Origin: Nitrospinota bacterium
GTDB taxonomy: Bacteria > UBA8248
Assembly: GCA_009839615.1 (NCBI GenBank)
Contig: VXPH01000130.1
Coordinates: forward strand, 1-42,561
Direction of reading: 5' to 3'
DNA: 42,561 nucleotides
The notes under the pieces are model-generated. The model was not told the DNA's origin. It made no database searches and saw only the letters and a list, made by a program, of their open reading frames with translations. The translations under genes and the position numbers were made by a program. Positions 221-769 of the stretch are shown here, in pieces. How positions within the stretch are numbered: the first letter of the stretch is position 1; each line of letters begins with the position of its first letter.

Positions 221-769
221 ATGAGATGGAGCAGGTGTCCGTTCAAGCGAACTCTGCGTCCGGTGGCGATGGCGTTCGCTTTTATCCTGATGAGCTTGAG
301 CATGGCGGTGGCGGCGCCTTTCGATGAGAATCGCCCCAAGGTGGGGGATAAGGCGCATGCGTTCGAGATACAGGGTTTCAAGCTCTCCGACCTCGAGGGC
401 AGGAAGAACCTCGTCATGATTTTCTATCGGGGGCATTTCTGAGTCATCTGCCAGCGGCAACTCGTCGAGTTCCAGCGACTTTCAGCGAAAATTCACAGGC
501 TCCAGACCGAAATCGTCGCCGTCAGCGCGGACAACGCGCTTGAGATGAACAAGACGACGCGGGAGTTGGGTATTCGGTATCTCCTGATATCGGACCCGAA
601 GAAGCGGATTATCAAACGCTTCGGGGTGCTGCATCCGAGAGAGGGGATCGCCCGGCCCGCCACTATCATCATCGACAAGAAAGGCGTGGTTCGCTACGTT
701 CACGTGGGCAAGTACCCCAGCGACCGCCCGTCGGCTCAGCAAGTGATGCAGGCCCTCGCTTTTTTGTGA
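221..769 (+). CDS. Exported peroxiredoxin-like (AhpC/TSA, thioredoxin fold) protein, candidate selenoprotein with in-frame TGA (Sec) at 440-442
   Basis: ORFs 200..442 and 545..769 share a frame and are joined by uninterrupted sense codons after TGA 440-442. Product ...LSDLEGRKNLVMIFYRGHF[U]VICQRQLVEFQRLSAKIHRLQTEIVAVSADNALEMNKTTRELGIRYLLISDPKKRIIKRFGVLHPREGIARPATIIIDKKGVVRYVHVGKYPSDRPSAQQVMQALAFL. This matches the FYRGHWCxxCRRQL-type active site with UGA at the first Cys. Signal-peptide-like N-terminus; GGAGG at 207-211 favours ATG 221 (ATG 200 is an alternative). Confidence 0.85.
456..473 (+). promoter_or_regulatory. Candidate bacterial SECIS-like hairpin downstream of the recoded UGA
   Basis: GG(c)AACTC-GTC-GAGTTCC: 5-bp perfect upper stem 459-463/467-471, extended by GG 456-457/CC 472-473 across a bulged C458. 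The loop GUC starts with G, 21 nt after UGA. Confidence 0.6.

Follow-up and report, generated by a model that had tools for sequence, protein, structure and literature searches.

Introduction

Insertion of selenocysteine (Sec) at an in-frame UGA codon in bacteria follows an established mechanism, in which the loop of the SECIS element (bSECIS) recruits SelB, GTP and Sec-tRNA to the ribosome at the UGA. The SECIS of the E. coli fdhF gene has a characteristic anatomy with a bulged U17. According to the consensus model, a bSECIS has an apical loop of 3–9 nt, an upper stem of 4–16 bp, a G among the first two nucleotides of the loop, as a rule with G or U after it, a distance of 16–37 nt between the UGA and the apical loop, and a minimum free energy (MFE) of -7.5 kcal/mol or lower (PMC13188914). 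Peroxiredoxin-like (Prx-like) selenoproteins with a UxxC motif have been known since metagenome surveys (PMC1088965, PMC2398784). No paper on Nitrospinota selenoproteins turned up in the literature that was searched.

Here we analyse a contig of 42,561 nucleotides from a Nitrospinota bacterium (VXPH01000130.1, 'the window'). Comparative sequence evidence indicates, with a probability of roughly 0.93, that a hairpin at positions 456–473 serves as the bSECIS of a gene for a Prx-like UxxC selenoprotein, where SelB would bind and direct the insertion of Sec.

The Prx-like selenoprotein gene

Reading the UGA as Sec joins 200–769 into one ORF encoding a protein of 189 residues (Table 1). Judged from its sequence context, the ATG at 221 (Met8), which lies in frame behind a GGAGG at 207–211, is the likelier start. 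The AhpC/TSA domain PF00578 extends across the UGA (91.3 bits versus a cut-off of 26), and the AlphaFold2 model of the protein (pLDDT 92.6) matches peroxiredoxins at TM 0.8–0.9.

Table 1. Positions of the selenoprotein gene, its recoding signal and the adjoining gene in the window
Feature	Position	Strand	Remarks
Selenoprotein ORF, AhpC/TSA (PF00578), Prx-like	200..769	+	190 codons including stop; UGA decoded as Sec81 in the numbering that starts at ATG 200
In-frame UGA, Sec codon, first position of UxxC (RGHF-U-VI-C)	440..442	+	Conservation, dN/dS, Sec machinery
Cys codon of UxxC	449..451	+	Aligns with second Cys of CxxC homologs and C of TxxC peroxiredoxins
5' arm of putative bSECIS stem	456..463	+	C458 bulged
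Apical loop GUC	464..466	+	First two positions G, U, as in the bSECIS model
3' arm of putative bSECIS stem	467..473	+	
D-Ala-D-Ala carboxypeptidase (Peptidase_S13)	821..2611	+	Neighbour of the selenoprotein gene at each family locus checked; no part of the Sec signal

The Sec residue is embedded in the motif FYRGHF-U-VIC. In the alignment of homologs it occupies the column of the T/S of TxxC peroxiredoxins, and the next Cys falls on their Cys, therefore the protein is of the UxxC Prx-like type. A classical Sec-peroxiredoxin (PxxxTxxU, with Sec at the peroxidatic position) was ruled out by the alignment of Sec with T/S. Assignment to the Prx-like UxxC group is consistent with the presence of PF00578, of U-V-I-C and of homologs carrying Cys for U (n = 29). 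The protein has an apparent N-terminal signal peptide and is probably exported. By analogy, the product is most likely a thiol:disulfide oxidoreductase or a peroxidase-like enzyme, in which U-x-x-C would serve as the redox pair.

In the window the selenoprotein gene is followed by the carboxypeptidase gene and then by recJ (2622–4478). The adjacency of the carboxypeptidase gene in every family locus tested supports the orthology of the selenoprotein genes. A ThiS/MoaD-like gene (5698–6021) and a tRNA-Met gene (23873–23949) are also present in the window.

Conservation of the UGA codon and the Sec machinery

The genome from which the window comes (3.57 Mb, 280 contigs) encodes the complete Sec machinery, selA, selB, selC and selD. 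The tRNA-Sec has a UCA anticodon and scores 75.9 bits; SelA was found with 582 bits, and SelB with 381 bits and the winged-helix domains wing_2 and wing_3. The selD gene contains an in-frame TGA (G000:C100:3018-3980, L211), and SelD of this genome is likely to be a selenoprotein itself.

The gene was found in 15 genomes of the family, counting that of the window. In every one of them the alignment column of the Sec codon holds UGA and never a Cys codon; the public records of the close orthologs are mostly labelled as Nitrospinota/Nitrospinae MAGs. Within the genus, dN/dS 3' of the UGA is 0.05–0.31, a range that would be surprising if the codon were a true stop. These values show purifying selection on the sequence downstream of the UGA, and hence selection for readthrough, in the genus.

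The list of standard-code ORFs ends one ORF at 442 and opens another at 545, as if the UGA were a true stop in a pseudogene, in a misassembled sequence or between two short genes. The identical codon was, however, found in 15 separate genome assemblies, selection is purifying on both sides of it, a single domain spans it and the genome has everything needed to decode it as Sec. The true stop or pseudogene was rejected on the basis of conservation and dN/dS, and we consider its probability negligible. Under the standard code the gene would be cut in two at the UGA; its annotation is thus corrected.

Hairpin structure and folding energy

The sequence at 456–473, GGCAACTCGTCGAGTTCC, was checked together with its coordinates. 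The stem starts 13 nt past the UGA, within the reading frame. If the U of the UGA is counted as nt 1, the stem consists of nt 17, 18 and 20–24 paired with nt 28–34, the bulge is nt 19 (C458) and the loop comprises nt 25–27. The outer pairs G456–C473 and G457–C472 are separated by the bulge from a core of five Watson-Crick pairs (A459–U471, A460–U470, C461–G469, U462–A468 and C463–G467), which is closed by the loop G464 U465 C466. A first-pass annotation, made from the letters alone, had drawn the same stem and had placed a loop beginning with G and U 21 nt downstream of the UGA; letters, pairs and spacing were all borne out.

The isolated hairpin has a calculated energy of -4.1 kcal/mol, or -6.1 kcal/mol with two more pairs, and the extended stem reaches -7.5 kcal/mol when evaluated in context. 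The hairpins of homologs reach -10.1 kcal/mol. Folding of 440–490, a check suggested by the first-pass annotation, did not favour the hairpin: the MFE fold of the free RNA is a different one (z = 0.15), the core pairs of the hairpin have a probability of about 0.08 in this segment, and the segment 400–540 likewise folds otherwise. When folding was restricted to the RNA from the 13th nt on (withholding the first 12 nt mimics a ribosome parked on the UGA), the hairpin was the MFE structure, at -7.5 kcal/mol.

It could be argued that some other or larger structure, such as the MFE fold of the free window RNA in which 441–444 pair with 460–463, is the real signal. This fold varies between orthologs and uses nucleotides of and beside the UGA, which the decoding ribosome covers. 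Moreover, in an alignment of 23 sequences from different lineages the covariation is confined to the register of 456–473 (0.297, versus 0.086 or less in any slid register). We regard such a structure as highly improbable.

The chance expectation in the window was estimated in two ways. After synonymous resampling, in which the amino acids were kept and the codon usage of the window was applied, five pairs formed in 31% of the sequences if G-U was allowed, and five Watson-Crick pairs in 4%. Of the TGA triplets in the window, 38% are followed by a hairpin that is compatible with the loop, G and spacing rules of the model and has at least five pairs. A search of the whole window against Rfam at gathering scores detected nothing but a tRNA. 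By single-sequence thermodynamics the hairpin is unremarkable and only weakly significant on its own, and the thermodynamics of the window was therefore not used as proof. What lifts the hairpin above chance is the comparative evidence.

Covariation in the stem

Stem conservation among UGA-containing orthologs was one of two points on which the first-pass annotation had made its proposal depend. The five core pairs are present in all family orthologs (15 genomes, including that of the window), and compensatory changes were found at two of them. Within the family, pair 24-28 occurs as C-G (CTC..GAG), G-C (CTG..CAG) or U-G (CTT..GAG), and pair 21-31 as A-U (CAA..TTN) or G-C (CAG..CTN). The change of 24-28 from C-G to G-C combines a synonymous change of Leu with a replacement of Glu by Gln, and the change of 21-31 from A-U to G-C combines a synonymous change of Gln with a replacement of Phe by Leu. 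Because one side of each swap, the 5' side, is a synonymous codon choice, selection at the protein level does not explain these exchanges. A third core pair, 22-30, is U-A instead of C-G in a single distant homolog, G156.

In the alignment of 23 sequences 95% of the cells are paired, and 17 two-sided changes were counted versus 5.0 in shuffled alignments (17 was reached in none of 500 shuffles). The mismatch A-C at pair 21-31 does not occur in any of the 79 distinct Sec copies. Fisher tests of co-occurrence at 21-31 and 24-28 gave 8e-12 and 3e-8, values that are inflated by relatedness, since the sequences are related and the cell counts are not independent events. It is safer to say that at least three separate lineages have 24-28 as G-C, with Gln for Glu: the family of the window, G156 and G129.

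Further regularities were seen around the core. Where nt 33 is C, which does not pair with C19, nt 17 is G in 8/8 sequences, restoring a G-C pair across the bulge; of the 57 sequences with G at nt 33, 15 have G17. The first two loop positions are GG or GU in 68/79 Sec homologs.

Several related genes were noted during the survey. The genome of the window has a second Prx-like UxxC selenoprotein gene (G000:C240:5100-5450, L213; orthologs L214-L226) with the motif YRGHW-U-PYC-KQQLTAF, whose UGA is kept in 14 family genomes. A bSECIS-model hairpin at constant register was not found in this gene and its orthologs, which may use an atypical SECIS. In the Sec-rich phylum of G056 (L181-L210) dozens of genomes contain Prx-like UGA genes with near-identical stems (CARCTCG[GU]NGAGYTG), and some carry two Prx-like copies near each other on one contig. 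The homologs L123, L127, L131, L156 and L159 have the UGA at the second motif position (TxxU) and are classical Sec-peroxiredoxins.

Comparison of Sec and Cys homologs

A strict pattern for the Cys version had no matches in 386 genomes and a relaxed pattern had eight; the controls were supplemented with Cys homologs from plasmids. For synonymous resampling of the homologs a third-position GC weight of 0.65 was assumed. All five pairs are present in 66 of the 79 Sec copies, compared with about 12 (12.1) expected, and are absent at the 456–473 register in the other 13. None of the 29 Cys copies has them (0.3 expected). Among homologs with another residue at the Sec position and Cys at the second, they were found in 2 of 63 (1.4 expected).

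The stem is encoded by codons of a conserved amino acid motif, QLx[EQ][LF], which occurs in 65/79 Sec copies but in only 1/29 Cys copies. At the codon level the motif is near-palindromic, QLVEFQ / QLxELQ being encoded by an inverted repeat, and the hairpin could in principle be a by-product of these amino acids, without a decoding role. The 31% obtained by resampling the window agrees with this explanation, as does the finding that the five pairs also arise, presumably by coincidence, in two of three non-Sec homologs that combine the motif with a second-position Cys. Codon choice, however, tracks pairing: Leu is CTC with GAG and CTG or TTG with CAG or CAA, and Gln is CAA with TTN and CAG with CTN. 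All five pairs are formed in 64 of the 65 motif-bearing Sec copies, and in G394, the sole Cys copy to have the motif, pair 24-28 is broken. In six genomes of the genus the stem codons 5, 6, 7, 9 and 10 past the UGA show no synonymous change, whereas the loop and flanking codons do vary. All 6 encode the Gln of the stem by the rare CAA, although 36/45 of the gene's other Gln codons are CAG. A mere by-product of the motif is thus very unlikely.

The converse, that QLx[EQ][LF] is retained for the sake of the bSECIS stem formed by its codons, would mean that the constraint is one of decoding and not of catalysis, and that the RNA signal has shaped the protein in Prx-like UxxC selenoproteins. We put this forward tentatively, as a possible but rather doubtful explanation.

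In summary, the proposal of a bSECIS-like hairpin gained support from the conservation of the stem with the UGA, the compensatory changes, the Cys homologs without the stem and the Sec machinery of the genome. A stem that compensatory changes have preserved and that goes together with the UGA, in a genome with the machinery and in a gene under selection, points to an ordinary bSECIS signal. With the ribosome at the UGA, the mRNA channel would hold the first ~12 nt, and the RNA that follows would fold into the hairpin. SelB carrying GTP and Sec-tRNA(Sec) would use its C-terminal winged-helix domains to bind the G464-U465 loop and the upper stem, and would deliver Sec in place of the action of a release factor. 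We infer SelB binding, Sec delivery and the enzyme chemistry by analogy with characterized systems.

Comparison with known systems

What had been a guess from one sequence can now be described as a putative bSECIS element backed by covariation. The hairpin shares with the consensus model (PMC13188914) its position in the coding region directly 3' of a conserved UGA, a G-U beginning of the loop, five contiguous pairs with two more beyond the bulge, and the spacing of 21 nt; it also shows compensatory conservation in UGA orthologs and is missing from Cys homologs. The loop of 3 nt, which the first-pass annotation had described as small, is indeed at the lower limit. The energy is marginal: the isolated hairpin (-4.1 to -6.1 kcal/mol) is weaker than the published cut-off of -7.5, which the extended stem just reaches in context.

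The core of the E. coli fdhF SECIS (GGUUGCAGGUCUGCACC, checked in E. coli records) resembles the hairpin in its two G-C pairs, its short upper stem, the single pyrimidine that bulges out and the G-U of the loop, and its energy in the same calculation is nearly equal (-4.2 versus -4.1 kcal/mol). Relative to fdhF, the distance from the UGA to the bulge (nt 19) and to the loop G-U (nt 25-26) is greater by two nt. The bulged base is C and not U, the loop has three nucleotides, and most homologs have a plain pair instead of a bulge. As the stem occurs at one register across several distant lineages, these genes form a clean test set for variation of the bSECIS rules (3-nt loop, optional bulge).

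With the known Prx-like (Prx-like 1) selenoproteins (PMC1088965, PMC2398784, PMC13188914) the protein shares PF00578, UxxC, a downstream bacterial SECIS and known Cys homologs, whereas this copy comes from a Nitrospinota-labelled lineage and is probably exported. The locus adds a new member to each of two known groups, bSECIS elements and Prx-like UxxC selenoproteins.
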